Assembly (NCBI GenBank): GCA_013824245.1 | Contig: PNNN01000041.1 | Location: 1 to 43,593, forward strand | Length of the DNA stretch: 43,593 nt | Direction of reading: 5' to 3' | DNA from: Chlorobiaceae bacterium | GTDB lineage: Bacteria; Bacteroidota; Ignavibacteria; UBA10030; SZUA-254 | Shown: positions 281 through 35,500 of the stretch, piece by piece | Layout of the letters: every line of letters starts with the position of its first letter | Position numbering within the stretch: the stretch's first letter is position 1 | The notes under the pieces: generated by a model | The model's input: only the letters and a program-made list of their open reading frames with translations | Database searches by the model: none | What the model was told of the DNA's origin: nothing | Program-made: the position numbers and the translations under genes

Positions 281-1396
281 ATGAACTTTGGCGTATTAAA
301 AGAAGATACTTCCCGCGAAAGACGTATTGCACTAACACCTGCGGGAGTCCAGTCGCTTGTGAGTGGCGGACACCAAGTCTATATTGAAAAAGATGCCGGA
401 CTTGCATCTCATTTTATAAATGAACAGTATGAAGCAATCGGAGCAAAAATTGTTTACACTCGCGATGAGATATTCGGCCGATCCGAAGTTGTACTGAAAG
501 TTTCTCCGCCCACCGTTGAAGAATGCGAACGACTCGAAGATGGAAAAACATTGATTTCATCTCTTCATCTTGTGGTTGGAAAAGAAAAAAAACTTGAATT
601 GCTTTTGAAAAAAAATGTATGCGCCATCGGGTACGAGTTGATAGAAGATCAAAACGGAGAATTGCCGATACTTCAGGTGATGAGTGAAATCGCAGGACAG
701 ATGGCAACGCAGGTAGCCGCACGTTATCTTGAAAGCAGCGCTAACGGGCGTGGCATAGTGATGGGTGGAATTACGGGCGTTCCGCCGGCAACAGTTTTAA
801 TTATCGGAGGCGGAACTGTAGGACATGCCGCGGCGCGAATTGCTTTTAGTTTAGGAGCCGAAGTTATATTACTTGATAAAGATTTAAGACGCATTCGCGC
901 TTTGGCAAACGAATTTAAATTTCGCATAGTAACAGCTATCGCAAACGAATACAATATCCGCAAGGTATTGCATTTTGCTGATGTTGTGATTGGTGCGGTA
1001 CTTATTAAAGCAGAACGCGCGCCTCATGTGGTAACTGAAGATATGGTAAAACTGATGAAACCCGGTTCTATTATAGTGGATGTTTCAATCGATCAGGGCG
1101 GATGTATTGAAACAAGCCGTCCGACTACGCTGGAGAATCCGACATACGTATTACATAATGTAATTCACTATTGTGTTCCCAACATGCCGGCAAATGTTTC
1201 GCGCACTGCAACCTATGGTTTGACTAACGCTTTGCTTCCATATCTTTTAAACATATCGCAATTGGGAATCCCCGATGCACTGGCAGAAGATGTTGGACTT
1301 GCAAAAGGTGTTTGCACATTCAAGGGGAAATGTACAAACGAACCGCTCGCTCGTCGGTTCGAGTTGAAACATTTTAACGTTCAATCACTATTGTGA
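281..1396 (+). CDS. ald: Alanine dehydrogenase
   Basis: Cytosolic NAD-dependent enzyme that interconverts L-alanine and pyruvate plus ammonia. The 371-residue length is normal for the family. The N-terminal catalytic half holds the expected substrate residues R15, K73 and H96. The central NAD-binding Rossmann fold begins with IIGGGTVG (about 174-181), and the acid/base aspartate lies in VDVSIDQGG (about D271). The related proton-translocating transhydrogenase alpha subunit is less likely, because the residue set and length fit alanine dehydrogenase and no PntB partner follows. The gene is first in a + strand run leading to a CoA-transferase and malic enzyme, so it probably feeds alanine nitrogen and carbon into the pyruvate pool, or disposes of pyruvate as alanine during fermentation. 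A TTGACA promoter lies 40-70 bp upstream. Confidence 0.93.
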   Translation: MNFGVLKEDTSRERRIALTPAGVQSLVSGGHQVYIEKDAGLASHFINEQYEAIGAKIVYTRDEIFGRSEVVLKVSPPTVEECERLEDGKTLISSLHLVVGKEKKLELLLKKNVCAIGYELIEDQNGELPILQVMSEIAGQMATQVAARYLESSANGRGIVMGGITGVPPATVLIIGGGTVGHAAARIAFSLGAEVILLDKDLRRIRALANEFKFRIVTAIANEYNIRKVLHFADVVIGAVLIKAERAPHVVTEDMVKLMKPGSIIVDVSIDQGGCIETSRPTTLENPTYVLHNVIHYCVPNMPANVSRTATYGLTNALLPYLLNISQLGIPDALAEDVGLAKGVCTFKGKCTNEPLARRFELKHFNVQSLL

Positions 1397-1441
1397 TTTG
1401 TTCGACTGTAATAATCTAAAAGAAAAATATTTTAAAAGAAT

Positions 1442-2746
1442 ATGAATTGGGTATATCAATATAAAGAAAAACTTACAACACCCGAACAAGCTGTTACTGC
1501 TGTAAAGAGCAACGACCATATTTTTATAAGCGGGAATGCCGCTACACCGTTCCAATTAATAGAGTCTCTTGCCGCCCGTAAAGATGAATTGAAGAGTGTA
1601 AAAGTAAATCATGTTCTGCTGATAGGTGAAGATCCGTTTACAAAGCCGGGGATGGAAAAACACTTCAGACATAACTCACTTTTTGTCGGTCCTGCAGATC
1701 GGCTTGCAATAAACGAAGGTCGTTCAGATTATGTGCCGGTTTTTCTGTTTGAGATTCCTGCTCTGTTCACAAAAAGAATTATTCCTCTCGATGTAGCCAT
1801 AATTCAGGTTTCGCCTCCCGACGAACATGGCTTTATGAGTTTTGGTGTTGAATGTCTGACATCCAAAGCCGCAGCCGAAAGCGCTAAAATTGTTATCGCT
1901 CAGGTAAACGAAAATATGCCTCGCACATTAGGAGATTCGTTTATACATATTTCGCGTATCCATAAAATCGTTGAGATATCAAAAGAATTACCTGAACTTC
2001 CGAGAAAACCACCTTCTGCCGTTGAACTTCAAATCGGGAAACATGTCGCGTCTCTTGTTGAGGATGGGGGGACACTTCAACTTGGCATCGGAGGAATTCC
2101 AGACGCAGTTCTTCAATCATTGATGGATAAAAGAGATTTAGGAATTCATACCGAGATGGTTTCGGATGGAATTGTAAAACTTATTGAAGCAGGAATCATC
2201 ACGAACAGTAAAAAAACGCTTCATCCCGGTAAAATAATCGCCACCTTTATATTTGGATCGAGACAATTATATTCGTTCGTCGATAACAATCCATTATTCG
2301 AAGTCCATCCGTGCGATTATACCAACGATCCGTTCATAGTTGCGAAGAACGAAAAAATGGTAGCTATAAATTCAGCCATCGAAGTTGATATCACCGGTCA
2401 GGTTTGCTCAGATTCTATTGGAACTAAAATTTATAGTGGATTTGGCGGCCAACTTGATTTTATTCGCGGAGCGGCTTATTCGAAAGGCGGAAAACCTATT
2501 ATCGCGCTTCCATCAACAACAAAAAAAGATACAGTTTCAAGGATAGTGTCGAAATTAAAATCGGGCGCGGGAGTTGTTACCACCCGCGCCGATGTTCATT
2601 ATGTAGTAACCGAATTCGGCATTGCCGAGCTTCACGGACGTAATATCCGTCAGCGTGCCAAAGCGTTAATCGATATTGCTCATCCGAAATTCCGTGAAGA
2701 ATTGGAGCGATATGCATTTGATCATAAATATACTTTACCTGTTTGA
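1442..2746 (+). CDS. Acetyl-CoA hydrolase/4-hydroxybutyrate CoA-transferase family protein
   Basis: Family I CoA-transferase of the acetyl-CoA hydrolase/4-hydroxybutyrate CoA-transferase group. It moves CoA between short acyl groups (acetate, propionate, butyrate or 4-hydroxybutyrate) through a glutamyl-CoA thioester. The predicted catalytic glutamate is E238 in GIHTEMVSDG, the same position as in the clostridial 4-hydroxybutyrate enzyme. The CoA-binding loop GIGGIPDAVL is at about 215-224, and the C-terminal signature GFGGQLDF followed by VTEFGIAELHG is present. The 434-residue length matches the family. It lies 45 bp after ald and 74 bp before malic enzyme, in the same direction. With a ferredoxin-dependent 2-oxoacid oxidoreductase downstream, a plausible role is releasing or activating the resulting acyl-CoA. 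The exact acid used cannot be told from sequence. Confidence 0.88.
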   Translation: MNWVYQYKEKLTTPEQAVTAVKSNDHIFISGNAATPFQLIESLAARKDELKSVKVNHVLLIGEDPFTKPGMEKHFRHNSLFVGPADRLAINEGRSDYVPVFLFEIPALFTKRIIPLDVAIIQVSPPDEHGFMSFGVECLTSKAAAESAKIVIAQVNENMPRTLGDSFIHISRIHKIVEISKELPELPRKPPSAVELQIGKHVASLVEDGGTLQLGIGGIPDAVLQSLMDKRDLGIHTEMVSDGIVKLIEAGIITNSKKTLHPGKIIATFIFGSRQLYSFVDNNPLFEVHPCDYTNDPFIVAKNEKMVAINSAIEVDITGQVCSDSIGTKIYSGFGGQLDFIRGAAYSKGGKPIIALPSTTKKDTVSRIVSKLKSGAGVVTTRADVHYVVTEFGIAELHGRNIRQRAKALIDIAHPKFREELERYAFDHKYTLPV

Positions 2747-5110: not shown

Positions 5111-5437
5111 ATGGCAGTTCGAGGAACAGTCAAAGTTGACATTGAGACGTGTAAGGGGTGCGAGCTTTGTGTAGAAGCTTGTCCGCAAGACACGCTCGCA
5201 ATGTCGAAAGAAATAAATAATAATGGTTACCACTACGCGGTAACCATTCAAGATAATTGCACAGGATGTGTTAATTGCGCATTGGTTTGTCCCGATGCAG
5301 TCATAACGGTTTACCGATCTTCTGCAAAGAAAAAAGATAAAGAAGCGGTAGCTGTAATCTCGAATGTTAAAGGCGATCTAAGAGTTACAATCGATAACCC
5401 GAATGTTGCCGGCGGGGTAGGAGGGATTGACGTATGA
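5111..5437 (+). CDS. 2-oxoacid:ferredoxin oxidoreductase, 4Fe-4S (delta) subunit
   Basis: Small electron-transfer subunit of a 2-oxoacid:ferredoxin oxidoreductase. Two bacterial-ferredoxin motifs are complete: C14-x2-C17-x2-C20-x3-C24-P and C50-x2-C53-x2-C56-x3-C60-P, enough for two [4Fe-4S] clusters that pass electrons from the thiamine-diphosphate centre to ferredoxin. The 108-residue length is usual; the last 40 residues form a charged then glycine-rich tail. An AGAGG-like ribosome binding site lies just upstream of the ATG. The stop overlaps the next start in an ATGA junction, so it should be translationally coupled to the alpha subunit. Equivalent names in other organisms are KorD/VorD/OorD. 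Confidence 0.92.
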
Positions 5438-6516
5438 GTGAAATACGATTAATGAAAGGAAACGAAGCAACTGCTGAAGCATCGATCCGTGCCGGATGCG
5501 ATGCCTATTTCGGTTATCCGATCACTCCACAATCCGAAATCATCGAATATTTGTCAGACCAAGGGCGAAAACGCGGAATGATTGTTATGCAGGTGGAAAG
5601 TGAAGTTGCGGCAATCAACATGATATACGGAGCCGCCGGCGCCGGCGCTCGTGCAATGACAACATCGTCCAGCCCCGGAATCAGTCTCATGCAGGAAGGA
5701 ATATCCTATATCGCATGTGCTGAGTTACCTTGTCTTCTCATGAATGTTAATCGTGGAGGACCCGGTTTAGGAACTATTCAACCTTCACAGGGAGATTATT
5801 TTCAATCGGTGAAAGGCGGAGGTCATGGCGATTATCATCTCATAGTCCTCGCGCCTGCAAGCGTTCAAGAAATGGCTGACTTTGTTTATCTCGGCTTCGA
5901 TCTCGCAGATAAGTATCGAAATCCGGTTCTTCTCCTCACCGATGGCGCTTTAGGTCAGATGATGGAAAAAGTTATTTTCCCAGACTACGACCCCAAAGCT
6001 CATAAACTTCCGAAACCATGGGCAACAGTTGGGAAGAATAGTAACCGACCTCCAAACGTTATAACATCACTTCATCTCCACTCTGATGAAATGGAGAAGA
6101 TCAATCTTCGACTTCAGGAAAAATATCGGAAGATAGAAGCGAATGAAGTTAGGTACGAATTGATGAACACCGAAGGTGCCGACGTAGTGATGATTGCTTA
6201 TGGGTTAACGGCAAGAATTTGCCAGCGCGTTATTGAACTTGGTATGCAATCTGGCCTGAATGTCGGTTTAATGCGTCCAATTACGCTCTATCCGTACCCT
6301 TATGAAATTCTTGCGAAACTATCAGAACAGGTAAACGGTTTTTTTGTAGTCGAAATGAATGCCGGTCAGATGGTTGAAGATGTTCGGTTAGGTGTAAACG
6401 GAAAAGTGCCTGTCGGTTTTTATGGTAGAATGGGCGGGGTAATTCCTACCGCCGAAGAAATTCTACATAGTTTACAACTATTTATGAAAAGTATTGCTGT
6501 GAAGGAGAAAGTATAA
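5434..6516 (+). CDS. vorB: 2-oxoacid:ferredoxin oxidoreductase, alpha subunit (VorB/KorA type)
   Basis: Alpha subunit with the pyrimidine-binding half of the thiamine-diphosphate site. Recognisable blocks are [16 protein letters not shown] near the N-terminus, [10 protein letters not shown] (residues about 27-36), the conserved ESEVAAINM glutamate region, and the long GGPGLG...QGDYFQ...GGGHGDY segment that is characteristic of the group annotated as 3-methyl-2-oxobutanoate (branched-chain) dehydrogenase VorB. 2-Oxoglutarate oxidoreductase alpha subunits are close relatives, so the substrate may be a branched 2-oxoacid, 2-oxobutyrate or 2-oxoglutarate. Its start overlaps the ferredoxin subunit stop, and the beta gene begins 1 nt after its stop. 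Length 360 is typical. Confidence 0.9.
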
Positions 6517-6517
6517 T

Positions 6518-7339
6518 ATGTCTGAAATTCAAGTTCCAACAAACGGCATGGAAGTAGTTTGGGAAAAACCGAAAACCTTAACTGACACGAGAATGCATTA
6601 CTGCCCCGGTTGTGGGCATGGAGTTGTTCATAAAGTTTTAATGGAGGTGATCGCTGATCTCGGGATTCAAGATAAAACTATTGGTGTTGCACCTGTGGGT
6701 TGCTCGGTTATCTCGTACAATTATATGAACATCGATATGCAGGAAGCAGCTCACGGGCGTGCAACAGCGGTAGCGACCGGTATAAAGCGGGTTCTCCCCG
6801 ATAAACTCGTATTCACATATCAAGGCGACGGCGATCTTGCAGCAATTGGAACGGCAGAAACTATTCACGCATGCAATCGCGGCGAAAATTTCTTGATCAT
6901 TTTCATCAACAATGCTATTTACGGAATGACCGGAGGGCAAATGGCTCCTACTTCACTCCTCGGCATGGTTACTAGCACAACACCCGAAGGGCGGCAAGTT
7001 GAAACTCAGGGATTTCCGATAAAGATTACCGAGATGGTAGCAACATTGCCCGGTACTTATTATATCACGCGTCAATCGGTGCATAATCCCACAGCGGTCA
7101 GGTATTTAAAGAAAGCAGTGGAAAAAGCATTCAAACACCAACTCGATAAAAAAGGAACATGTTTAATCGAAGTTGTTTCAAACTGTCCATCGGGTTGGAA
7201 AATGAATCCGGTTGAAGCCAATAAATGGCTCGAACAAAATATGTTTCCCATGTATTCTCCGGGTGACATAAAAATTGAGGGAAAACTTGTCGAGAAGAAA
7301 CCAACAACCACACCCGATAAGAAGGAGACAAAATTATGA
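6518..7339 (+). CDS. 2-oxoacid:ferredoxin oxidoreductase, beta subunit (thiamine-diphosphate binding)
   Basis: Carries the thiamine-diphosphate/Mg binding half of the enzyme. The motif begins at GDGDLAAIG (103-111) and ends around the conserved N131-N132-x-IYGMTGGQ, the classic GDG-to-NN spacing. The N-terminal CPGCGHG (29-35) is the conserved cysteine motif of KorB/VorA-like beta subunits. Length 273 is in range. The C-terminus (EKKPTTTPDKKETKL) is a short lysine-rich tail with no recognised role. Its stop codon overlaps the start of the gamma subunit gene (ATGA), so all four subunits should be made from one transcript. Confidence 0.93.
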   Translation: MSEIQVPTNGMEVVWEKPKTLTDTRMHYCPGCGHGVVHKVLMEVIADLGIQDKTIGVAPVGCSVISYNYMNIDMQEAAHGRATAVATGIKRVLPDKLVFTYQGDGDLAAIGTAETIHACNRGENFLIIFINNAIYGMTGGQMAPTSLLGMVTSTTPEGRQVETQGFPIKITEMVATLPGTYYITRQSVHNPTAVRYLKKAVEKAFKHQLDKKGTCLIEVVSNCPSGWKMNPVEANKWLEQNMFPMYSPGDIKIEGKLVEKKPTTTPDKKETKL

Positions 7340-7893
7340 CCCACGAAATTTTATTTGCCGGATTTGGCGGGCAAGGGATCCTCTCGATGGGGATGACACT
7401 TGCATATGCAGGCATCATTGAGGGGAAAGAAGTTACATGGATGCCTTCATACGGTCCCGAAATGCGAGGCGGAACGGCAAACTGCATCGTGATTGTATCC
7501 GATAAACGAATCAGTTCTCCAATCGTCGGTAAATTCGATGCACTTATCGCCATGAATCAACCATCACTCGATAAGTTCGAGAAAGCAGTGAAGCCGAACG
7601 GAATCATCATGTACGATAGCGGGAATATCATCGTTCCCCCTACACGCACAGATATAACAATTGCAGCAGTTCCGGTTGAAACCGAAGCGTTAAAACTTAA
7701 CAATCTTAAAGTTAGAAATATGATTATGGTCGGCGCCTTCTTAAGCGTTTGTCAAGTTGTGGAAACCGGAACAGTTGTAAAAGCGCTGTCAAAGGTACTG
7801 CCCGATCGTTATCACCATATGTTAAAAATAAATCAAGAAGCACTCGAACGCGGAGAAAAAATTGTAATCGAAGCGGCAACGCCATTGGCTTAA
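7336..7893 (+). CDS. 2-oxoacid:ferredoxin oxidoreductase, gamma subunit
   Basis: Gamma subunit, thought to bind coenzyme A in this enzyme family. It starts with the typical glycine-rich EILFAGFGGQGILSMG segment and has the conserved SYGPEMRGGTANC block (about residues 38-50), followed by a DALIAMNQPSLDKF stretch that is seen in KorC/VorC proteins. The 185-residue length is usual. The four-gene order delta-alpha-beta-gamma with overlapping or 1-nt junctions defines a complete operon. The reaction is 2-oxoacid + CoA + oxidised ferredoxin to acyl-CoA + CO2 + reduced ferredoxin, in the cytosol. This oxygen-sensitive chemistry points to an anaerobic or microaerobic lifestyle. Confidence 0.92.
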   Translation: MTHEILFAGFGGQGILSMGMTLAYAGIIEGKEVTWMPSYGPEMRGGTANCIVIVSDKRISSPIVGKFDALIAMNQPSLDKFEKAVKPNGIIMYDSGNIIVPPTRTDITIAAVPVETEALKLNNLKVRNMIMVGAFLSVCQVVETGTVVKALSKVLPDRYHHMLKINQEALERGEKIVIEAATPLA

Positions 7894-7906: not shown

Positions 7907-8164
7907 ATGAAAAAAGATGTTGAATGTGCTCACTCTTGTAAAGGATTTTGTAACGCACTGGAAATAGCAACTCTGCACGAAAAGGAAGCGATTTTTCATT
8001 ACGATTCGCTGAGAGATGAATGTAATTATCCAGATGTTAAAGCGATATTAAATGAGTTGATAATTCAGCGCCAGAAGACTATCCGTTTACTTGAAGAAGC
8101 GAAGGTCTTATTAAAATCGAAGTTCGAAATCCTGGATCAAATACAGGATGGGTTTAAAAGCTAA
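7907..8164 (+). CDS. Small Cys-rich, two-helix hypothetical protein (ferritin-like fragment?)
   Basis: An 85-residue protein that I do not recognise as a named family. It starts with a C7-x3-C11-x3-C15 cluster, then two predicted long amphipathic helices: about 16-36 with an E25-x-E27-x4-Y32 pattern, and 43-68 rich in Leu/Ile/Lys/Glu. The first helix resembles helix 1 of rubrerythrin/ferritin-like proteins, but the partner E-x2-H metal motif is missing from the second helix, so metal binding would have to be different. It sits 13 bp after the oxidoreductase gamma gene with a GGAG ribosome binding site, so it is the fifth gene of that operon, and a strong terminator follows. An accessory, redox or cluster-related role is only a guess. 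Confidence 0.7.
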   Translation: MKKDVECAHSCKGFCNALEIATLHEKEAIFHYDSLRDECNYPDVKAILNELIIQRQKTIRLLEEAKVLLKSKFEILDQIQDGFKS

Positions 8165-8284: not shown

Positions 8285-9274
8285 ATGCAGATGCATTCAA
8301 ATACTTCACAATCGCGAAACGATTTCCGTCCACGGATGATCGTTTGGCAGCTAACCGGTAAAGGTGCTCTGGACAATTTGCACGACAAATTGCTCAATCA
8401 GCATGAATGCCTTTGCATTATCGATAGTATTGCCCGCCTGTCAAAGCCGATCATAGTCTTGAATGGTGATTCCCTCATAGATCGACCCGACTTGCATGAA
8501 ATAATTGAATACGGAAACGAGTTGGACTTGAAGATGATAGCGGAGGTACATCCGGAGGAAATAACCGAAGACTTACTTGTTAAATTTAAATCATTCGGTC
8601 CCAAAACATTTCGACTTGTACTGAACAATCATATTGTTGAAGATATAGAATCGAGATATCAGGTAACCCCCGCATTTCAATCGCTTGAACGCGCAGTAGA
8701 TTTATTGCGTGCTAATCAATACGAACTTCATTTTAGCTATCTGGTTACAAAACCCAATCTTCGAAATCTCGCATTTAATATAGATTATGCTTTCAGGAAG
8801 AACGGTCGTGGTTTGTATTGTCACCTCCGTTTCGAGAAAAGTGTTCAAGAAGTGACTGTGCTTGATGATGAGATACAATCGCTTGATGAGTTCATCACGA
8901 AGATATCGGATTTAAAATTCAGTCTCCCGAATAACATGTATTTATCACCGCAATGTGTTAGATATCTACCGTTTCCGGTTGAAGAACAAAGCGATTTTGA
9001 TTTTTCCGATCTTAGACACCCTCGTTGGATTCACCATTGCCTCGCGGGAAAAACGTATGCTTTCATAGACGAGGTGGGAAAAGTTTTTATTTGCAGCGGC
9101 ATGTGTAAAGAATGCGGTGATTTGAGAGAAGAAAATTACGATTTCAAATCAATCTGGATAAATTCAGAAATCATGCAATTATTGCGCGATCATCCACGTT
9201 CTTGTGTTCAAACACGCCTTCTCTTGAAAAAGAATAGAGGAATTCCGGTTCAACAATTAGATATATTGGAATAA
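8285..9274 (+). CDS. Radical-SAM-like protein lacking the cluster motif, with C-terminal SPASM-like cysteines
   Basis: A 329-residue protein with the outline of a radical SAM/SPASM enzyme but without its catalytic heart. The first strand, RMIVWQLTGKG (17-27), aligns with the usual strand leading into CxxxCxxC, but no cysteines follow at the right place. The GGEP block is replaced by LNGDSLIDRPDL (59-70). The middle has the alternating pattern of a TIM-type barrel. Near the C-terminus there is a SPASM-like pattern: C252, then AFIDEVGKVFIC (to C270), C274, C277 and C307, with a conserved-looking IW before the last. It may therefore still bind an auxiliary Fe-S or zinc centre. It lies between the oxidoreductase operon and a methionine gamma-lyase-like gene that follows after 14 bp. 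Function unknown; a non-catalytic partner or peptide-binding protein is possible. Confidence 0.75.
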   Translation: MQMHSNTSQSRNDFRPRMIVWQLTGKGALDNLHDKLLNQHECLCIIDSIARLSKPIIVLNGDSLIDRPDLHEIIEYGNELDLKMIAEVHPEEITEDLLVKFKSFGPKTFRLVLNNHIVEDIESRYQVTPAFQSLERAVDLLRANQYELHFSYLVTKPNLRNLAFNIDYAFRKNGRGLYCHLRFEKSVQEVTVLDDEIQSLDEFITKISDLKFSLPNNMYLSPQCVRYLPFPVEEQSDFDFSDLRHPRWIHHCLAGKTYAFIDEVGKVFICSGMCKECGDLREENYDFKSIWINSEIMQLLRDHPRSCVQTRLLLKKNRGIPVQQLDILE

Positions 9275-9288
9275 TCAGCAGGTAACTT

Positions 9289-10590
9289 ATGAAAAAAAAT
9301 AAACAAAAACATTCTCTCGAAACCACACTGATACACGGAATGAACGTCAGTAAAAAATGGGATTTCAGTCATCACGTTGTTCCTCCGATATCATCGTCGT
9401 GCACTTTCCGCTTAGAATCGACAAAACGCGGCGCACTCGGATTTGCAGAGTTTGCCCACCACACGGATGATGCTGCTATATCATCGCGCGCACCTATTTA
9501 TATCTACGACCGACTTGGCGAACCGAATAAGGAAGTGTTGGAAGAAAATTTAGCTGCCGCAGAAAACGGAGATGCCGCAGTTACCTTTTCTACGGGAATG
9601 GCGGCGGTTTCGGCTGTGCTTGGATGTGTAACCGGCACCGGTGATGAGATTATCGCTCATAATATTCTTTACGGTTGCACTTACTCTCTTCTCACAAATT
9701 GGTATCCTCGTTATAGAATCTTAACAAAATTCGTTGACATGAAAAATCTTTTGAATATTCGGCGTGCAATCACTCCGAAAACGCGCGTAATTTATTTTGA
9801 AACACCGGTGAATCCCACACTTGAGTTGATTGATATTCAGACAATTGTTAATGAGATAAAACAACAAAATAAAAAACGACCGAAGGGAAGAAAGATATAT
9901 GTTATCGTTGATAATACTTTCGCAAGTCCGTTTTGCCAAAGACCTATTGAATTCGGCGTTGATTTTGTAATTGCTTCTCTGACTAAAAATATTTGTGGCT
10001 TCGGAACCGATATGGGTGGAGTGGTTGTGGGTCCCAAGTGGAGCTACGATGTTTTATTGCTCTATCGGAAAGATTATGGAGGTGCGCTCGCTGCAAAAAG
10101 TGCATGGCCCCTGCTTGTGTATGGATTACCAAGTTTAGCGACACGAATGCGCCATCAGATGGAAAGTGCGCACGCGATATCAACTTTCTTGGAGAGCGAT
10201 CCGCGTGTTGCGTTTGTGAACTTCCCGGGTTTAAAATCGTTTGCACAATCCGACTTGGCAAAAAAACAGATGCGAGATTATGACGGTAAATTTGCTCCAG
10301 GCAGTCTTCTGTATTTCGTCTTAAAGGGGAAGAGCCCGAAGCAGCGTCATGATAAAGGAGAAAAATTTATTAACTTCGTGGCGAAAAATGCGTATTCAAT
10401 TACTCTCGCTGTCAGTTTAGGCCATATCCGAACTCTCATAGAACATCCAAGCTCTATGACTCACTCAGCAATTCCTCTGGATGAGCAAGTAAGAAACGGA
10501 CTCGAGCCGGGCGGCATCCGCCTTTCTATCGGTTTGGAAAAGCCGAGTGATATCATCCAAGATCTCGCGAATGCTTTAGACCAAGTTTGA
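9289..10590 (+). CDS. Cys/Met metabolism PLP enzyme, methionine gamma-lyase type
   Basis: Member of the cystathionine gamma-synthase/methionine gamma-lyase fold family. The PLP lysine is K233 in SLTKNICGFGTDMGG and the PLP-N1 aspartate is D208 in VDNTFASP. A Y73-x-R75 motif from the neighbouring subunit is present. The LYGCTY segment (127-132) has Cys where cystathionine synthases and lyases usually have Gly; Cys at this spot is a hallmark of methionine gamma-lyase, which makes methanethiol, ammonia and 2-oxobutyrate. The 433-residue length is slightly longer than usual, partly from a ~10-residue insertion near residues 191-201 (KQQNKKRPKGR). The product 2-oxobutyrate would suit the ferredoxin oxidoreductase encoded upstream. 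Cystathionine synthase or O-acetylhomoserine sulfhydrylase activity cannot be excluded. Confidence 0.85.
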   Translation: MKKNKQKHSLETTLIHGMNVSKKWDFSHHVVPPISSSCTFRLESTKRGALGFAEFAHHTDDAAISSRAPIYIYDRLGEPNKEVLEENLAAAENGDAAVTFSTGMAAVSAVLGCVTGTGDEIIAHNILYGCTYSLLTNWYPRYRILTKFVDMKNLLNIRRAITPKTRVIYFETPVNPTLELIDIQTIVNEIKQQNKKRPKGRKIYVIVDNTFASPFCQRPIEFGVDFVIASLTKNICGFGTDMGGVVVGPKWSYDVLLLYRKDYGGALAAKSAWPLLVYGLPSLATRMRHQMESAHAISTFLESDPRVAFVNFPGLKSFAQSDLAKKQMRDYDGKFAPGSLLYFVLKGKSPKQRHDKGEKFINFVAKNAYSITLAVSLGHIRTLIEHPSSMTHSAIPLDEQVRNGLEPGGIRLSIGLEKPSDIIQDLANALDQV

Positions 10591-11048
10591 AGAGTATGGT
10601 TTCTAAGAAGTTGATCGACGATTTTTTTAAAGGGGGAAGTTTTGCCATAGCAGGTATATCGCGTACCGGTAAAAAATTCGGTAATGTTATTCTAAAAGAA
10701 TTAACAAAAAAAGGATATACTCTTTATCCTGTTCATCCAAATTCAGATAGAATAGATGGATTCAAGTGCTATAACAATCTTTCGTCTGTGCCAAAAAATG
10801 TGAAATCGTTAATCATTGTGGTTAAGCCGGATCAATCAATAAATATTATACGCGAAGCAGCACAAGCTGGTATTAAGAAAGTATGGTTTCAGCAAGGATC
10901 GTCGACCACAGAGGTTATTAAACTGTGTTCAGAATTTGGAATTGAAGCTATCCACGGCGAATGTATTCTAATGTTTCTGCCTCAACTAAAGTTTCCACAC
11001 AACCTTCACAAATATATCTGGAAATTGATAGGCAAATATCCTCACTAA
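10587..11048 (+). CDS. CoA-binding (Rossmann) domain protein, YccU-like
   Basis: Single CoA-binding domain of the succinyl-CoA-synthetase-alpha type, as in YccU-like proteins. FAIAGISRTGKKFGN (17-31) is the nucleotide-binding loop, followed by a GYTLYPVHPN strand-turn and a KSLIIVV strand. These small proteins bind CoA but have no proven reaction. Two starts are possible. TTG at 10587 overlaps the previous stop by 4 nt; ATG at 10596, three codons later, begins MVSKK. The overlap indicates coupling to the PLP enzyme. With the CoA-transferase and acyl-CoA-forming oxidoreductase nearby, a role in CoA or acyl-CoA handling is reasonable inference. Confidence 0.85.
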   Translation: MKSMVSKKLIDDFFKGGSFAIAGISRTGKKFGNVILKELTKKGYTLYPVHPNSDRIDGFKCYNNLSSVPKNVKSLIIVVKPDQSINIIREAAQAGIKKVWFQQGSSTTEVIKLCSEFGIEAIHGECILMFLPQLKFPHNLHKYIWKLIGKYPH

Positions 11049-13705: not shown

Positions 13706-13776
13706 GTCGATATTCTTTAATTTCAGACTGAATTAACAGAATTTTCGTTCCATACTAAAATTTAGAGGATTTGTAT

Positions 13777-15105
13777 ATGAAGAGGATTAAAGTAATTATT
13801 ATGGGAGCAGCAGGCAGAGATTTTCATGATTTCAATACGGTCTATCGTGATAATGAATTGTATGAAGTAGTGGCATTTACAGCAACTCAAATTCCTAACA
13901 TCGACGGTAGAAAATACCCCAGTGAATTAGCCGGGAAGTTGTATCCCAACGGAGTTCCAATCTATCCTGAATCAGATCTGGTTTCCCTTATCAAAAAAAA
14001 TAATGTCGATGAAGTTGTATTTGCATATTCCGATGTCTCCCACAATTATGTAATGGCGAAAGCATCCGTGGTTATGGCGGCTGGTGCTCATTTTAAACTT
14101 TTAGGTGCCCATCCAACGATGATAAAAAGTAAGGTTCCTGTGATTGCCGTTGTAGCAGTCAGAACCGGTGCTGGTAAAAGTCAAACCTCCCGTAAAGTTT
14201 GCAACCTTCTTCACGCTATGGGAAAACGCGTTGTTGCCATACGCCACCCAATGCCTTATGGAGATTTAGTTAAACAAAAAGTACAGCGTTATCAAACACT
14301 TGATGATCTTGTTAAATTTGATTGCACCGTTGAGGAAATGGAAGAATACGAGCCGCATATCGTAAATGGCACAATCATTTATGCCGGCGTTGATTACGAA
14401 GCCATACTTCGCCAGGCAGAACAAGAAGCGGATGTAATTGTTTGGGATGGTGGTAACAACGACATGTCGTTCTATCAACCCGATATGACGATTACTGTCG
14501 CCGATCCTCACAGACCGGGGCACGAATTAAGTTATTATCCCGGAGCGGCAAATATAAATTTAGCCGATGTTATCGTTATCAATAAAGTTGAATCTGCTAC
14601 ACGCGAGAATATCGATATCGTGAGGAAAAATATCAGGTCGGTTAATCCGGGTGCGGTTGTAATAGAGGCAGCTTCGCCAATTTCGGTTGAAGATGAAAAT
14701 CTTATACGTGGTAAAAGAGTGCTCGTTGTTGAAGACGGACCAACACTTACCCATGGTGAAATGGCTTATGGAGCCGGGGTTATTGCGGCGCAAAAATTCG
14801 GTGCCAAAGAAATTATCGATCCGCGTCCGTGGGTTGTAAATTCAATTGCAGAAACATTTGCGAAATATCCAAAGATCGGAATTTTGCTTCCGGCAATGGG
14901 TTATGGCGGAAAACAGATTAAAGACCTCGAAACAACCATCAACAAAGTGGATTGCGATACTGTGATCATTGGAACTCCGATTGATCTTCGACGAATCATC
15001 AAAATAAATAAGCCGAGCGTTCGCGTGCGGTATGAACTTGATGAAATTGCAAAACCCGACTTGAACGATCTGTTGTTGAATTTTTTCAAGAATTACAAAG
15101 GATAA
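13777..15105 (+). CDS. Cyclic 2,3-diphosphoglycerate synthetase-like GTPase
   Basis: A 442-residue P-loop protein of the family that includes archaeal cyclic 2,3-diphosphoglycerate synthetase. The N-terminal ~120 residues form a Rossmann-like domain (VIIMGAAGRDFHDFN at 7-20). The P-loop is VRTGAGKSQ (about 128-136), followed by VWDGGNND and an NKxE base-binding-like motif (INKVES). I chose ATG 13777 over TTG 13771 because GAGG lies at 13764-13768. The bacterial reaction is not established; family membership does not prove cyclic diphosphoglycerate synthesis. It is 6 bp upstream of ornithine carbamoyltransferase and appears to be the first gene of a carbamoyl-phosphate cassette, so a role connected with carbamoyl phosphate, acyl phosphates or energy sensing is possible. 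Confidence 0.85.
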   Translation: MKRIKVIIMGAAGRDFHDFNTVYRDNELYEVVAFTATQIPNIDGRKYPSELAGKLYPNGVPIYPESDLVSLIKKNNVDEVVFAYSDVSHNYVMAKASVVMAAGAHFKLLGAHPTMIKSKVPVIAVVAVRTGAGKSQTSRKVCNLLHAMGKRVVAIRHPMPYGDLVKQKVQRYQTLDDLVKFDCTVEEMEEYEPHIVNGTIIYAGVDYEAILRQAEQEADVIVWDGGNNDMSFYQPDMTITVADPHRPGHELSYYPGAANINLADVIVINKVESATRENIDIVRKNIRSVNPGAVVIEAASPISVEDENLIRGKRVLVVEDGPTLTHGEMAYGAGVIAAQKFGAKEIIDPRPWVVNSIAETFAKYPKIGILLPAMGYGGKQIKDLETTINKVDCDTVIIGTPIDLRRIIKINKPSVRVRYELDEIAKPDLNDLLLNFFKNYKG

Positions 15106-25329: not shown

Positions 25330-25962
25330 TTATCTGACAAGCATCATCCGCTTTGTTTCAATCTTCCCGGAAGACTTGAATTGATAAAAATAAATACCGC
25401 TTGGTTGGTTTTCAGCATTCCATTCAACTCTATGATCTCCTGCCGACATGTTTCCATCTACTAAAGTTGTAATTTCAGCACCGAGCAGGTTATATATTTT
25501 TAAAGATGCATAAGCCGGATGGTCTAAGTGAAAATTAATTTGGGTTTGTGGATTGAAAGGATTTGGGAAATTTTGCATTAACCTTAACTCTTGCGGCGTT
25601 ATTGTTTCGGATGGTTTAATATCTGTAGTTTGATTCACAATTATTGTTCCTTTCATCCCAAGCGATGCGTGCGGTATGCAAACGTAATAATGTGTTCCGG
25701 TTGTTTGCAGTACAACTATACCGCCGCCGAATCCAAGCAAAAAGCCGCCGTTCGAAGTTGTGCCGTTCACATCCCATGTTGCCTGGCTGACTTCAACAGC
25801 ATTATGAAGAGATGAAAGTGTAAATATTACGGTATCACCGAGATTGATCGTAATGGCGTTCGGCGAAAATGTTGTTCCTGAATTAATGATTGTGTGTGTG
25901 ATTGAATAACTCAATCCTGTCAATGAAAATAAAAGTGCTACTATTATTGTTGTTTTCTTCAT
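25330..25962 (-). CDS. Secreted cupredoxin (plastocyanin-like) with T9SS sorting domain
   Basis: A 210-residue exported protein: signal peptide 1-20, a plastocyanin-like domain about 21-112 and a T9SS type-A C-terminal sorting domain about 125-210 starting with LMQNFPNPFNPQT. The copper ligands of a type-1 site are all visible: H53, C95, H98 and M103 (YVCIPHASLGM). It probably passes electrons at the cell surface or outside the cell, but its redox partners are unknown. Cupredoxin fused directly to a sorting domain would be anchored to or released from the surface. TTTGGAG just upstream is a good ribosome binding site. It is 100 bp upstream of the nusB promoter and probably its own unit. Confidence 0.88.
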   Translation of the reverse strand: MKKTTIIVALLFSLTGLSYSITHTIINSGTTFSPNAITINLGDTVIFTLSSLHNAVEVSQATWDVNGTTSNGGFLLGFGGGIVVLQTTGTHYYVCIPHASLGMKGTIIVNQTTDIKPSETITPQELRLMQNFPNPFNPQTQINFHLDHPAYASLKIYNLLGAEITTLVDGNMSAGDHRVEWNAENQPSGIYFYQFKSSGKIETKRMMLVR

Positions 25963-29038: not shown

Positions 29039-32000
29039 ATGAAGAACCGTCTCCCAACAGTTCTCGCCATCGCATTGGTGTATTTTATGCAACCGGTAAT
29101 ATACACTCAGACGATCCCGTCCGGTATAATGGCGATTAACTATGATACACTCCGTATTGCATCATATAACCTGTTAAATTATCCTAACGATAATTCAACT
29201 CGCGATCCATTTCTACGTCGGGTGGTACACCCGATGAAACCTGATATTCTTGTTGTGCAGGAGATGACGAGCCAAGCCGGCGTAACTGCATTTCTAAATA
29301 ATGTTCTTAATTATTACCAAGCAGGGTTATATACAACAATCGCTTTTCATGATGGATATGATACCGATAATCATATTTATTTTAAAACCGGTAAAGCTAC
29401 CGTTCTTAGCGCGGCGTACATAACAACGGCTCTACGCGATATTGCAGAATATGTTGTTCGATTTACATCATCGAATGATACGGTAAGGTTTTATTCATTG
29501 CATCTCAAAGCAAGCACTGGTTATGAAACACAACGTCTGGCTGAAGCAACCATTTTGCGAAATCATCTTAACAATCTTCCTGCCGGGACAAAATTCATGG
29601 TGGTGGGAGATTACAATATTTATACAAGTACCGAGCCGGCATTTCAAAAATTGATTAGTAGCGAGACAGACAATGACGGTCGATGTAAAGATCCGATAAA
29701 TGCAGTTGGAAATTGGAATAACAATTCGGCGTTCGCAGCCATTCATACACAATCACCAAGAGTTCGTGCGTTTGGCGGCGGCTCAACAGGCGGGATGGAT
29801 GATCGGTTTGATATCATCCTCACATCATACTCGGCGTTAGATAACAACACAATAGTATCGACTTATAAGGCATATGGCAACGACGGGAATCATCTGAATG
29901 ACAGCATAAATAGATTGCCGAATACCGCAGTTCCCGATAGTGTTGCTAACGGATTGCATTATGGTTCAGATCATATTCCAGCGATCTGTAATTTTAAGTT
30001 TGAAAAAAGTGTTTCAGCATTTCAATTGCTTTCACCAATCAATAGCACGGTCAACCAGCAAATATCCGGAACACTACGTTGGCAGTCATCAGCGAATGCT
30101 AACGGTTACGATCTGTATTTCGATCAGAACAATCCACCCACAACAATTGTCAGCGTAAGCCAAACAGATACAACATATTCTTTTTCTAATTTAGCACAGG
30201 GGCATTCATATTATTGGAAGGTAGTTGCAAAAAACGGTTCTAAAACAATTACATCAACTGAAGCGCCCTGGAATTTTACTACAATAACTATAGATCCACC
30301 CAGCGCTTTTGAATTATTATCTCCAACCAATAATGCAGTAGATCAAAGCTTGACTGGACAATTATCGTGGCAAACTTCAGCCAACACCGAGAGCTATGAT
30401 ATCTATCTCGATACAATCAATCCGCCGGTGTTGCGAATTGATTCTAACTTAAATCTAACTTCATATCAGTATTTCAATCTACGCGGCAATACAAATTATT
30501 ACTGGAAAGTTGTTGCGAACAATTTTACCGCTGCTACTGTCTCTCAAAATGCGCCCTGGAGTTTTACAACAGCAACTCCACCAACACAACCATCAGGTTT
30601 AACTGCTACAACTATCTCCTCAACACAAATCGATCTTTCATGGATAGATAACGCATCAGACGAAAATGGATATCACTTATATCGATCATTCTTTGTCGGA
30701 GGACCCTATAGTTTGGTAAGCGGAGATTTAATATCGAATACGATTTCTTACAGTGACACCCAATTATCTATCAATACACAATATTTTTATCGCGTTGTGG
30801 CATTTAATGATGTCGGTGAGAGCGAAATCGCTTCAACAACAAAAGCTACATATTCAAATATTCCTGCCGTGCCTGATATTGGGAATATCACGCCGCACTC
30901 GTTAATCCTGACGGTCAATTCTAATCTGAATCCACCCGTAACGGAGTATCTTGTTAGATTTATTCATTTGAATGATACATTGTTTTTGCTGAATAACGGA
31001 ATGTTAACCGGAGTTATAAGCTGGAATACGCGGCAAATGTTGGGCGATTCAAATGGAATACAAGTTAACGGTTTAGATTCCTGTTCGCTTTATGAAATAG
31101 ATGTTAAAGCGCGAAATGTTGAGTCGATTGAAACAGATTTTAGTGCAAATGTTAGCCAACAATTGCCCTGCTATCTGATCTCTGGATCGGTTAATGCCGG
31201 CTGGAATTTAATATCATTACCTGTAATTGTGGATGATGCATCAAAGCAAACTCTTTTTCCCACCAGCATATCGAATGCGTATAATTATAACGGATCTTAT
31301 GTTTCGGCAGACTCATTAAAATTTGGGATCGGGTACTGGCTAAAGTTTGGATCAACGACGTCGATTGAAATTGCAGGTAGTCCTATTTTTGACGACACCA
31401 TAAATTTATTGGAAGGATGGAATCTCATCGGCTCAGTTAGCAAGCCAGTCCCGGTAAGTTCGGTTAGCACTGATCCTCCCGGAACTACTCTTTCTGAATT
31501 TTTTGAGTATCAAGGTGCGTATCAAATCAGTACGACAGTTGAACCATCAAAAGCTTATTGGGTTAAGGCGGCAACCGCATGTAAACTGATCCTTCCTCAA
31601 ATTTTATTGTGTCGTTCGTTCATTATCGAACCAAGAGATTACAATCTGTCATCTAACCCTATGATGTTTTCGTTTACAGATCCAACCGATCATACTCAAA
31701 ATTTATATTTGACTCCATCATTATCAAGTAACAAATATTTATCTGATCTTCCGCCCCCACCACCCGCGGAGGCATATGATGTTCGTTTCAAATCTAATCG
31801 GTTTATAGAAATGTTCTCCCCGATTAATTCCGAACAAGAATTTTTATTCTCAATAAATTCTTCTGCTTATCCTGTTAAGATGCAATGGAAAATCACTGAT
31901 GATGAATACAATATTTCGTTTGTATATGGTAGCAGCCGCCGCCGACTTGAGGGCGAAGGATATTTACTCATCGACAAGTCGGGAACATACAAATTCGAGG

Positions 32001-32311
32001 TTGATCAAAAAGGAACAGAACAAAGACCTAACCAATATTCACTTTTGCAGAACTATCCAAACCCGTTTAATCCTGAAACTTACATCTCATATGAGTTGCC
32101 TGAGATGAGTGTTGTCAAGTTGACGGTGTTCAACATTCTTGGAAACGAGATTGCGGTTTTAGACGAAGGTATGAAAGAAGGAGGCATTCATCGAGTTTGC
32201 TGGGAGCCACACTGTGCTGCTGGTGTTTATTATTATCGTCTGGTTGCCACGGCGGTTGATAATCCTAAGGATAGTTATCAATCGGTTCGCAGAATGACTT
32301 TCTTGAAGTGA
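29039..32311 (+). CDS. Giant secreted endonuclease/exonuclease/phosphatase-fold protein with T9SS tail
   Basis: A 1090-residue exported, multi-domain protein. Signal peptide about 1-24. An EEP-fold hydrolase domain spans about 36-320, with N44 (ASYNLLNYP), E75 (VQEM), H155 (SLHLKA), D191/N193 (GDYN), DRFD (255-258) and S310-D311-H312 (GSDHIP), the full catalytic set of nucleases and phosphodiesterases. Then two FnIII-like ~95-residue repeats (about 325-515), one classical FnIII (about 518-605), a linker, a WNLIS domain with two NAGWNLIS/EGWNLIG blocks (about 720-860), and the T9SS type-A sorting domain from about 1000 (LLQNYPNPFNPET). It probably degrades extracellular nucleic acid or phosphodiesters. 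It is a mosaic paralogue of the next gene, sharing everything but the head. Confidence 0.88.
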   Translation: MKNRLPTVLAIALVYFMQPVIYTQTIPSGIMAINYDTLRIASYNLLNYPNDNSTRDPFLRRVVHPMKPDILVVQEMTSQAGVTAFLNNVLNYYQAGLYTTIAFHDGYDTDNHIYFKTGKATVLSAAYITTALRDIAEYVVRFTSSNDTVRFYSLHLKASTGYETQRLAEATILRNHLNNLPAGTKFMVVGDYNIYTSTEPAFQKLISSETDNDGRCKDPINAVGNWNNNSAFAAIHTQSPRVRAFGGGSTGGMDDRFDIILTSYSALDNNTIVSTYKAYGNDGNHLNDSINRLPNTAVPDSVANGLHYGSDHIPAICNFKFEKSVSAFQLLSPINSTVNQQISGTLRWQSSANANGYDLYFDQNNPPTTIVSVSQTDTTYSFSNLAQGHSYYWKVVAKNGSKTITSTEAPWNFTTITIDPPSAFELLSPTNNAVDQSLTGQLSWQTSANTESYDIYLDTINPPVLRIDSNLNLTSYQYFNLRGNTNYYWKVVANNFTAATVSQNAPWSFTTATPPTQPSGLTATTISSTQIDLSWIDNASDENGYHLYRSFFVGGPYSLVSGDLISNTISYSDTQLSINTQYFYRVVAFNDVGESEIASTTKATYSNIPAVPDIGNITPHSLILTVNSNLNPPVTEYLVRFIHLNDTLFLLNNGMLTGVISWNTRQMLGDSNGIQVNGLDSCSLYEIDVKARNVESIETDFSANVSQQLPCYLISGSVNAGWNLISLPVIVDDASKQTLFPTSISNAYNYNGSYVSADSLKFGIGYWLKFGSTTSIEIAGSPIFDDTINLLEGWNLIGSVSKPVPVSSVSTDPPGTTLSEFFEYQGAYQISTTVEPSKAYWVKAATACKLILPQILLCRSFIIEPRDYNLSSNPMMFSFTDPTDHTQNLYLTPSLSSNKYLSDLPPPPPAEAYDVRFKSNRFIEMFSPINSEQEFLFSINSSAYPVKMQWKITDDEYNISFVYGSSRRRLEGEGYLLIDKSGTYKFEVDQKGTEQRPNQYSLLQNYPNPFNPETYISYELPEMSVVKLTVFNILGNEIAVLDEGMKEGGIHRVCWEPHCAAGVYYYRLVATAVDNPKDSYQSVRRMTFLK

Positions 32312-32520: not shown

Positions 32521-35500
32521 ATGGTACTAGATAAGGACAGACAGTTGAGACAGAGAAATAATTCGGGATGGATATGTAAGAGCGTTATTTTGATTGCGAT
32601 TTTCTTGAGTATGCACTCTTTTATGAGTGCTCAAACAACATACAATATTTATTTTGGTGATAACCATTCTCACTCATGGTATTCCGATGGGAACCAAGAT
32701 CAAAATAAGTTGACGTACACAACACCAGTAGCGCGGTCAATAACATGGGCGAGGAGCAACAGGTCAAGTTTGGATTTCATGGGGATCAGCGATCATAACC
32801 ACAACGAAAGCTTGAATATGACTTTAGCTTACTGGCGTTCTGGTGTTCGAGAAGCTGACTCAGTAAATATGGATGGCAATTTTGTAGGAATGTATGGACA
32901 AGAGTGGGGCACTATCAGTGGTGGTGGACACGTTTTAGTTTATGGAACAGATAAATTATTCGGTTGGAATCCCGGAGTGTACGATGTATATGTTGCAAAG
33001 GGGGATTATGCTAGATTGTGGGATTCAGTAAAAAAGTATAACGGATACTGCTATCTTGCCCATCCTAATACAAGTGATTTTGGAGCTTTGGCTACATCAG
33101 CTTTTAATGCGAAAGCCGATAGTGTAGTCCGTGGAGTTTCCATGAAAAGCGGTAATGCTTTTTCAACAAATACAACCGAAACTGATCCTGATGTCGGAGA
33201 TTATACCACATATATCAATACACTTTTAGCTAAAGGTTATCATATAGCCCCGATAGCAAATCAGGATAATCATAACACAACATTCGGTAAATCGAACCAG
33301 CAGCGGACCGCAGTGCTCGCAACAGCGTTGACAAAAGCAAATGTAGATGATGCCTTCAGACAGAGAAGAGTATATGCAACAGAAGATCATAATCTGCAAA
33401 TCAAGTTTGAAGTTAATGGACATCAGATGGGAGAAATCTTTTCGATGAGTGGATCTATTCCATTTCGGGTAAAGATCACCGATCCGGATGTTGAATCAAT
33501 AAGTAAGATCGAATTACGTTACGGTGTTCCCGGTTCGGGAATTGCGCCAACAGTTCTTTCAAGTGTTTTAAACAGAGATTCGCTCGTGCTCACGCAGTCG
33601 CAAACTGTTGGAACAACATATTACTATTACGTCTATGTGCAAGAAGCTGATGGAAACGAAGCATGGTCAGCTCCGATGTGGATAACCATCTCTTTGGGAC
33701 CGGTTCCAGGTTCATTCAATTTATTGTCTCCCTCGAATGCGAGCATCAACCAATCTTTGAGCGGAACACTATCGTGGCAGGCGGCTACCGGTGCAACATC
33801 ATACGATGTTTACCTCGGTACAACAAACCCGCCAACAACCAGAGTTGGAGTTGATCTTACAACAACATCTTATAGTTATTCGGGATTATTAAATAACACA
33901 ACATATTACTGGAAGGTTGTGGCAAAGAACAGTAACGGCTCCACAGATGCAACGGCATCACCGTGGAGTTTTGTAACTATACCGGCTTCTCCTGCAGCTT
34001 TTAATTTATTGACGCCATCCAACGGTTCTGTTAATATTCCGACATCCGGATCACTTACGTGGCAAGCTTCTGCTAATGCAACAGGATATGATGTTTATCT
34101 TGGAACGATTAATCCACCTGTAACAAAAGTCAGTTCAAATCAATCTGCTACAAATTATTCTTATAGCGGATTAAATAATAGTACTGTCTATTATTGGAAA
34201 GTTGTATCCCGCAACAGCGTTGATACAACAATTGCTACCGGTTCACCGTGGGGTTTTACAACAATCATTTCAGCTCCGGGTACATTCTCGCTCGTATCAC
34301 CGGCGGATAGCTCTATAAATTTACCCATAAGTGGGACATTGTCTTGGCAGACCTCTGCGAACGCTGCATCGTACGATGTGTATTTAGGTATAACAAATCC
34401 GCCAACTGTAAAAGTCAGTTCTGATCAAACAAGTACAACATTTAACTATACCGGTTTATCCAACAACACTACATATTATTGGAAAGTTATTGCTAAGAAT
34501 GTAGCTGGAACATTGGAAGCGATTGGGTCTCCGCGAAGATTTAAAACTATTGTTGCACTTCCCGGCTCGTTTACACATCTTTTACCTGCTAACTTATCGG
34601 TCAATCAAAATATCGGTGGGACTCTTAATTGGCAATCATCATCAAACGCTTCTGCATATGATGTATTTTTAGATACAATAAATCCGCCGGTTCAAAAAGT
34701 GAGCGCAGAGCAGGCAACTACATTGTTCAATTATTCCGGTTTGATGAATAACAAAACTTATTATTGGAAGATTGTTGCAAAAAATATTGCAGGCGCTACA
34801 GATGCAACTGCTTCACCCTGGAGTTTTACAACCATAATAGACACACCGGGTACATTTACACAATTGGCTCCTGCAAATTTATCGGGGAATCAACCGGTCG
34901 ATGGAACACTATCATGGCAAGCATCTACGAATGCATCATCTTACGATGTTTATCTTGATGTAACTAATCCACCGATGACAAAAGTTAGTTCCGATCAAAT
35001 TACATCATCTTATAATTATTCCGGATTAACAAACAACACTATTTACTATTGGAAAGTTATTGCTAAGAATGTAGGTGGAGAAATCATCGCATCCGGGGCA
35101 CCATGGATGTTCACAACAATTGTAGCAGTGCCTGCCGGTTTTTCAATAGCATCGCCTGCAAACAATGCACAAAATATTTTAGTCGATGGTGTTCTCTTAT
35201 GGCATCAATCACCCAATGCTCAATCTTATGATGTTTATCTCGGGACTTCGACTCCTCCGACCGTGCTCGTAAGTTCGAATCAGGTGGACACACTATACAC
35301 TTACTCTAATTTATCCAACAATACGGTTTATTACTGGAAGGTAGTTGCGAAAAATATTAATGGGACAACAGAGGGTTCATTTTCACCGTGGACATTCACA
35401 ACGATTGTGCCGTCGCCATCATCGTTTCAATTAATAACTCCCTCCGAATCAGCCGGAGATCAGTTGTTATCCGGAGTTTTTTCATGGGAACCATCTTTAT

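Follow-up and report, generated by a model that had tools for sequence, protein, structure and literature searches.

Among described proteins, the closest to the one analysed here is the radical-SAM enzyme AhbD, with its two auxiliary clusters, AuxI and AuxII. In the work on M. barkeri AhbD (PMC10452713), C223, C256, C274 and C324 are assigned as ligands of AuxI and C312, C315, C321 and C342 as ligands of AuxII, with S-S distances at the cluster sites that are mostly 6.0 to 6.8 A. The role of AuxII is called enigmatic there, and roles of AuxI are only proposed. An artificial variant with AuxI only contained 2.7 +/- 1.4 Fe per protein and gave the EPR signal of a tetranuclear cluster, and many archaeal AhbDs are described as lacking the AuxI cysteines and keeping those of AuxII (PMC10452713). 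The four AuxI cysteines are therefore no family-defining trait of AhbD and, as far as this source describes them, these archaeal proteins are the reverse of the protein reported here, which keeps AuxI-type cysteines. Another family, TIGR04347, is similar by name only: it is labelled as a SPASM protein without the SAM motif, with "Halo" in its short name. In the open-access literature searched we found no publication naming this family and, among the papers listed, no relevant description of degenerate radical-SAM proteins; among the papers listed for radical SAM with Ignavibacteria or with methionine gamma-lyase there was also none on this protein, judging by titles and the beginnings of abstracts.

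The gene in question lies in a window (the whole stretch of DNA analysed, 43,593 nucleotides) that corresponds to a whole contig, and its product is the sole match to its own sequence in its genome of 3.23 Mb. The gene and its neighbours are the following:

281..2746, + strand: alanine dehydrogenase (over cut-off) and acyl-CoA transferase (nearest TIGR03948, under cut-off), from family scans
5111..7893, + strand: 2-oxoacid:ferredoxin oxidoreductase operon of four genes (5111, 5434, 6518, 7336), the first and last matching Fer4 and POR
7907..8164, + strand: 85-aa protein, ferritin-like in appearance, whose start has a conserved CX3CX3C; its gene separates the oxidoreductase operon from the pseudo-radical-SAM gene
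8285..9274, + strand: pseudo-radical-SAM/SPASM gene, AhbD-related, 329 aa, ATG start, open reading frame confirmed
9289..10590, + strand: Cys/Met-metabolism PLP enzyme, starting 14 bases after the pseudo-radical-SAM gene
10587..11048, + strand: CoA-binding protein, overlapping the end of the PLP gene

The middle two genes of the oxidoreductase operon (5434 and 6518) were assigned to it presumptively, from their sequence, and between the acyl-CoA transferase and this operon there is a gene that we take to be malic-enzyme-like.

The best NCBIfam match of the window protein was AhbD (TIGR04545; E = 1.4e-20, 74 bits, below the curated cut-off of 500), followed by TIGR04053 and NirJ2 (TIGR04055); these two are radical-SAM enzymes by family name, unlike the window protein, which falls far under their cut-offs. 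TIGR04347 scored it at 19.5 bits, below its cut-off of 525, and Pfam SPASM (PF13186) at 17.9 bits, below the gathering cut-off of 21.5. AhbD was the top match in all four members of the clade that were scanned (the window protein and three others). A scan of genome contigs with the single sequence gave no relative, and a sequence search of solved structures gave no match up to E 10. Using a profile of the clade, 15 further loci were found among genome contigs, 13 of them titled Planctomycetota or subgroups, and in all 15 the CX3CX2C motif is intact. Two of these intact relatives were scanned and had AhbD as best family, with 483 and 435 bits, also under the cut-off of 500; the others are termed AhbD-type here because they can be aligned with these two. 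In the alignments, 14 of the 15 members of the clade (A1, A2; G008, which meets a contig end, was left out) and 14 of the 15 intact relatives (A2, A3; L059, with a fused frame, was left out) were used. Profile-profile comparison of the clade with the 14 intact proteins gave a probability of 100% and E = 5.8e-43.

The structure of the window protein was predicted with AlphaFold from a mixed alignment (pLDDT 85.3, pTM 0.85) and from an alignment of the clade only (pLDDT 79.9, pTM 0.80), with nearly unchanged secondary-structure elements. The best fold matches of the first model in the PDB were PqqE (Z 18.6, 255 residues at 4.2 A, 15% identity) and then SuiB (Z 18.0, 11% identity; PDB 6c8v and 5v1s, respectively), both of which are active radical-SAM peptide-modifying enzymes. 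PqqE was also the top Foldseek match of both models (E 1.6e-10 and 1.3e-10), at a TM-score of only about 0.5. A partial (beta/alpha)6 barrel and a SPASM part are thus present in the predicted models. The initial annotation had suggested structure prediction as a check, with the absence of a radical-SAM fold as the outcome that would count against its reading; AlphaFold, Foldseek and the Z scores all point to a radical-SAM fold. The E-values of the AhbD match and of the profile-profile comparison, together with two confident models, confirm that the resemblance is beyond chance, and the window protein is very probably an AhbD-related pseudo-radical-SAM protein.

The likeness to AhbD concerns the predicted fold, the overall sequence, at least three AuxI-type cysteines and the motifs C-GK-FAFI and F-IW-S-R of the SPASM part. 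In contrast with AhbD, the window protein lacks both the CX3CX2C after strand 1 and the GGE. It has also lost at least three AuxII cysteines, its C-terminus is shorter and its barrel residues are changed, and no haem genes were seen beside it in the window. The two lost motifs map as follows:

8351..8389, + strand: strand-1 loop, residues 23-35, where alignment with intact AhbD-type proteins places the lost CX3CX2C triad
8462..8473, + strand: NGDS in place of GGEP, residues 60-63, read from the sequence

The window protein has cysteines at 42, 44, 179, 224, 252, 270, 274, 277 and 307, none of them in the strand-1 loop. The initial annotation was thus right that the cysteines of the SAM cluster are absent and that GGEP reads NGDS. 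It had also called for homologues equally lacking the motif, and these were found: the CX3CX2C after strand 1 is missing in 15 of 15 members of the clade and neither GGE nor GGD occurs in 14 of 14, while all 14 intact relatives have the CX3CX2C and a GGE or GGD. The loop is not cysteine-free throughout the clade, since each of the four members from the second family (f2) keeps two cysteines there and two members from the family of the window (f1), L017 and L018, keep one each; these are perhaps relics. Concerning the AuxII set (CX2CX5C and a last cysteine), the MAFFT alignment shows gaps at the first, second and last positions in all 14 members and puts the third opposite C307, and the C-terminus of the pseudo-proteins is shorter than in the intact relatives. 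Two possible substitutes for the triad were considered. The string CSGMCKEC at residues 270-277 fits CX3CX2C, but it is part of the SPASM hairpin, where no more than four of 14 members have such a string, so that it was rejected as a displaced radical-SAM motif. Donation of the triad in trans by the 85-aa neighbour is not supported: its motif is CX3CX3C and not CX3CX2C, and four f2 and five f1 carriers have its gene at another place in the genome.

Across all 28 aligned rows (14 pseudo-proteins and 14 intact relatives), no more than four cysteines are invariant:

8954..8956, + strand: C224, invariant, AuxI-type ligand position (compare C223 of M. barkeri AhbD)
9038..9040, + strand: C252, invariant, AuxI-type ligand position (compare C256 of M. 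barkeri AhbD)
9092..9094, + strand: C270, invariant, AuxI-type ligand position (compare C274 of M. barkeri AhbD; spacing of 18 kept)
9203..9205, + strand: C307, invariant, probable fourth AuxI ligand (equivalence to C324 alignment-dependent; starts the last helix in both models)

The SPASM-like cysteines listed in the initial annotation therefore have to be revised: C252, C270 and C307 hold, but C274 (five of 14 members) and C277 (nine of 14) are not conserved, and the invariant C224 was omitted. The bridge to the M. barkeri numbering was the intact relative L053, by cysteine pattern, order and spacing. Its invariant cysteines (248, 283, 301, 341, 344, 350 and 353) repeat the CX2CX5CX2C pattern and the cysteine order published for M. 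barkeri AhbD, and the two middle AuxI cysteines are 18 residues apart both in that enzyme and in the window protein. By position and spacing, at the level of the sequence, C224, C252 and C270, which align directly with cysteines of the intact AhbD-type proteins, match the published AuxI ligands of AhbD. The match of C307 with C324 is probable, since the equivalence of C307 varies with the alignment. MAFFT pairs it with the AuxII ligand that opens CGGC instead of with the final cysteine of this element, in which case only three AuxI ligands would remain. We read it as an AuxI position because it starts the last helix in both AlphaFold models, which is where we take the last SPASM cysteine to be located. 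Judged from these residues, it is likely, by a good margin, that the window protein binds one AuxI-type cluster; we go no higher because the alternative alignment of C307 would leave three ligands. The protein looks like a natural AuxI-only derivative of AhbD, akin to the artificial variant.

It could also be proposed that the protein has no iron-sulfur cluster at all and is a scaffold, structural or regulatory, whose cysteines bind zinc or are structural. Four-cysteine sites can hold zinc, but for at least three of the positions the AhbD counterparts have been proposed as ligands of a cluster that EPR revealed in that enzyme, and we consider such a scaffold improbable. Taken together, the alignments and the fold models support the core of what was first read from the sequence, namely a radical-SAM/SPASM-shaped protein that lost the SAM-cluster triad and retained auxiliary-cluster residues.

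We then evaluated whether this state is an isolated decay or a property of a lineage. Homologues occur in 15 of the 98 genomes of the order, 11 of 15 in family f1 and four of five in f2, so that the carriers are spread over two families, both within a single order of Ignavibacteria-type Bacteroidota. Searching the 98 genomes with the A1 profile at E <= 1e-15 matched only these 15 carriers and gave no intact orthologue in the order, and in 395 genomes sampled evenly over the phylum the matches at E <= 1e-20 were limited to four carriers, from this order, and two proteins whose motif is intact. Eight records with close relatives are named as Ignavibacteriales, Ignavibacteriae, Bacteroidetes or Bacteroidota bacteria, one of them as an uncultured bacterium. 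In a tree of 30 rows, rooted at the midpoint and with long branches for L023 and L026, the 14 full-length pseudo-proteins are set apart from all other rows by a branch supported at 100/100, and within them f1 (97/97) and f2 (90/81) separate. The simplest reading is that the SAM chemistry was lost once, in the ancestor of the two families, and that this state was then inherited.

A decaying pseudogene of a radical-SAM enzyme would explain the loss of key motifs, and a decayed copy among homologues with an intact motif was the alternative foreseen at the outset. However, no homologue in the clade has the intact motif (none of 15), and all 15 members have no stop within the matched frame, one of them (G008) being cut by a contig end. 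Moreover, the gene is kept across two families, the A1 alignment has 36 invariant columns and dN/dS (NG86) is 0.051 for the pair G000-G001 (0.056 for FeoB), at a high dS of 1.28, and 0.110 for G030-G020, with no value obtained for four of the 11 pairs. The window gene is therefore not a decayed copy: all 15 homologues lack the triad, the 14 full-length ones form one clade and dN/dS is low in these two pairs. Decay of a single copy is refuted by the open frames, the dN/dS values, the conserved columns and the spread over two families, and for the group as a whole a decaying pseudogene is hardly credible.

The barrel of these proteins carries residues of its own. E87, R110, Y178 and H180 are present in 14 of 14 members of the clade and in none of the 14 intact proteins, which have A at the first position in all 14, S at the second in 13, N (12) or H (2) at the third and F at the fourth in all 14. 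R160 is never R in the intact set. The contrast is less clean for the clade-fixed E147 (one of 14 intact proteins), K83 (two of 14, R being usual) and D167. Six of these eight positions are located on or beside barrel strands in the model, R160 and D167 being in a helix. Conversely, the clade has substitutions at several positions of strands 5 and 6 and close to AuxI that never vary among the intact proteins. Clade-fixed residues and low dN/dS in the two pairs together speak for a new function of the barrel rather than decay.

Kinship with AhbD makes it conceivable that the substrate pocket was kept and that the protein moves or senses haem or coprohaem. The replaced intact-set residues speak against this, as do the neighbours in the window, which are amino-acid catabolism genes, and the haem genes of the carriers: ferrochelatase is present in 14 of 15 (the one miss is a genome 81% complete) and AhbC is over its cut-off in none of 15. 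No AhbD was over cut-off in the 98 genomes of the order. Outside the clade the AhbD profile matched best at 130 and 116 bits, and both of these proteins belong to G074; since two intact relatives reach 435 and 483 bits, a true AhbD would be expected to be conspicuous. Weaker matches (E <= 1e-10) occur in 68 of the 98 genomes, and the 11 such loci inspected were other radical-SAM proteins. A role in the haem pathway by way of Ahb genes is thus not supported. Since ferrochelatase is so widespread among the carriers, a haem-synthase role is unlikely, and the loss of the SAM motif, as read from the sequence, argues against such an activity; it is also unlikely that the protein serves a siroheme-dependent haem pathway in these carriers. 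We regard a tetrapyrrole binder as a poor prospect.

Concerning the neighbourhood, the initial annotation had placed the gene between a ferredoxin-reducing enzyme and a PLP enzyme, overlooking the 85-aa frame (7907-8164) that intervenes on the upstream side. The order in the window is alanine dehydrogenase, acyl-CoA transferase, oxidoreductase operon, 85-aa gene, pseudo-radical-SAM gene, PLP enzyme and CoA-binding protein. The closer association is with the PLP gene rather than with the oxidoreductase: of the 15 carriers, 11 have the PLP gene downstream in the same orientation (G000, G001, G002, G005, G006, G010, G014, G015, G020, G025 and G030), in two families with differing upstream genes, with a 73-aa frame in between in G014 and a contig end cutting the PLP gene in G030. 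In the other four carriers (G004, G007, G008 and G012) no PLP gene was found at E <= 1e-100, the contig of G008 ending inside the pseudo-radical-SAM gene. The nearest family of the PLP enzyme is methionine gamma-lyase, at 320 bits, below the cut-off of 550. Of the 83 genomes of the order that lack the pseudo-radical-SAM gene, 39 have the PLP gene. Ignoring kinship, co-occurrence of the two genes is weak over the 98 genomes (Fisher p 0.09); restricted to the 20 f1 and f2 genomes, the Fisher p is 0.008.

The oxidoreductase lies upstream in the window and in five of the 10 other f1 loci, in L018 with only the end of the last gene on the contig, and in none of the four f2 loci, where the alanine dehydrogenase and CoA transferase are directly 5' of the pseudo-radical-SAM gene and the PLP gene comes after it. 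In two f3 genomes the oxidoreductase, 85-aa gene and PLP gene follow one another without the pseudo-radical-SAM gene. From these arrangements, the gene is optional in the array, its place being 5' of the PLP gene. The 85-aa gene, upstream neighbour in the window and in five other f1 loci, has a product that matches the EncB family at E 0.05 only and no Pfam family; it was matched in 67 of the 98 genomes (E <= 1e-5) and follows the last oxidoreductase gene in seven other loci having both (L016-L019, L029, L093 and L096).

An electron carrier was among the roles first suggested. In such a role the AuxI cluster would shuttle single electrons to or from the neighbouring 2-oxoacid:ferredoxin oxidoreductase. 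The four invariant cysteines and the operon upstream in the window and in half of the other f1 loci are consistent with such a carrier. However, the operon already has a ferredoxin-like subunit of its own (5111-5437), the oxidoreductase is not adjacent in the other five f1 and the four f2 loci, and a bare carrier has no need of a barrel of 230 residues with new invariant polar residues. This role, possible in itself, leaves the kept barrel unexplained, and we judge it rather unlikely.

Other features of these loci were also recorded. A MobA-like gene is found 1 to 2 kb upstream in three carriers, adjacent in L020 and L021 and one gene off in L023 (assigned by Pfam in L021 and by clustering in L020 and L023), and other genes near it in L023 are presumably MoaA-like, FmdE-like and TorD-like, of molybdenum-cofactor type; a partnership with the PLP enzyme offers no explanation for the MobA-like neighbours. 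About 0.4 and 0.8 kb upstream of the pseudo-radical-SAM gene, L022 and L029 encode proteins of 111-114 aa with two cysteine-rich repeats and no Pfam match. Elsewhere in the window, the protein at 25330-25962 (- strand), which has a match to the T9SS type A sorting domain, shares a C-terminal tail with the ends of those encoded at 29039-32311, 32521-37431 and 37914-42302 (+ strand), and these three match the same stretches of related loci. The gene at 13771-15105 (+ strand) encodes a P-loop protein that we take to be cyclic 2,3-diphosphoglycerate synthetase-like; in six clustering f6 loci a homologue immediately precedes the PLP gene, and one of these was checked against the window gene.

The best reading of these data is a [4Fe-4S] protein that was repurposed as a partner or sensor in the catabolism of amino acids, a function that we infer. 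An AhbD-type radical-SAM ancestor would have lost its SAM chemistry once, before f1 and f2 separated. C224, C252, C270 and C307 would hold one AuxI-type [4Fe-4S] cluster, and the barrel, which in AhbD holds SAM and Fe-coproporphyrin, would have acquired a new polar pocket formed by K83, E87, R110, E147 and H180, binding another small ligand. The protein might then act as a partner or as a redox or metabolite sensor of the PLP enzyme, with no radical chemistry, and the 2-oxoacid produced by that enzyme (2-oxobutyrate if the substrate is methionine) may feed the neighbouring oxidoreductase. We give this chain of events as a whole an even chance of being correct, and that the protein works with the PLP enzyme at all seems about as probable as the contrary, the manner of it being conjecture. 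A more specific version, in which a dedicated iron-sulfur partner stripped down to AuxI senses or presents an amino acid or 2-oxoacid in its charged pocket and the redox state of the cluster sets PLP activity, is put forward only tentatively, as one possibility.

With regard to the auxiliary clusters of SPASM enzymes, a conserved natural protein that apparently has AuxI alone, without radical chemistry, would be a clean object for measuring the contribution of AuxI, and would illustrate the reuse of a radical-SAM barrel after SAM binding is gone. The present data suggest that, in these Ignavibacteria-type Bacteroidota, an old radical enzyme has been put to non-radical use.
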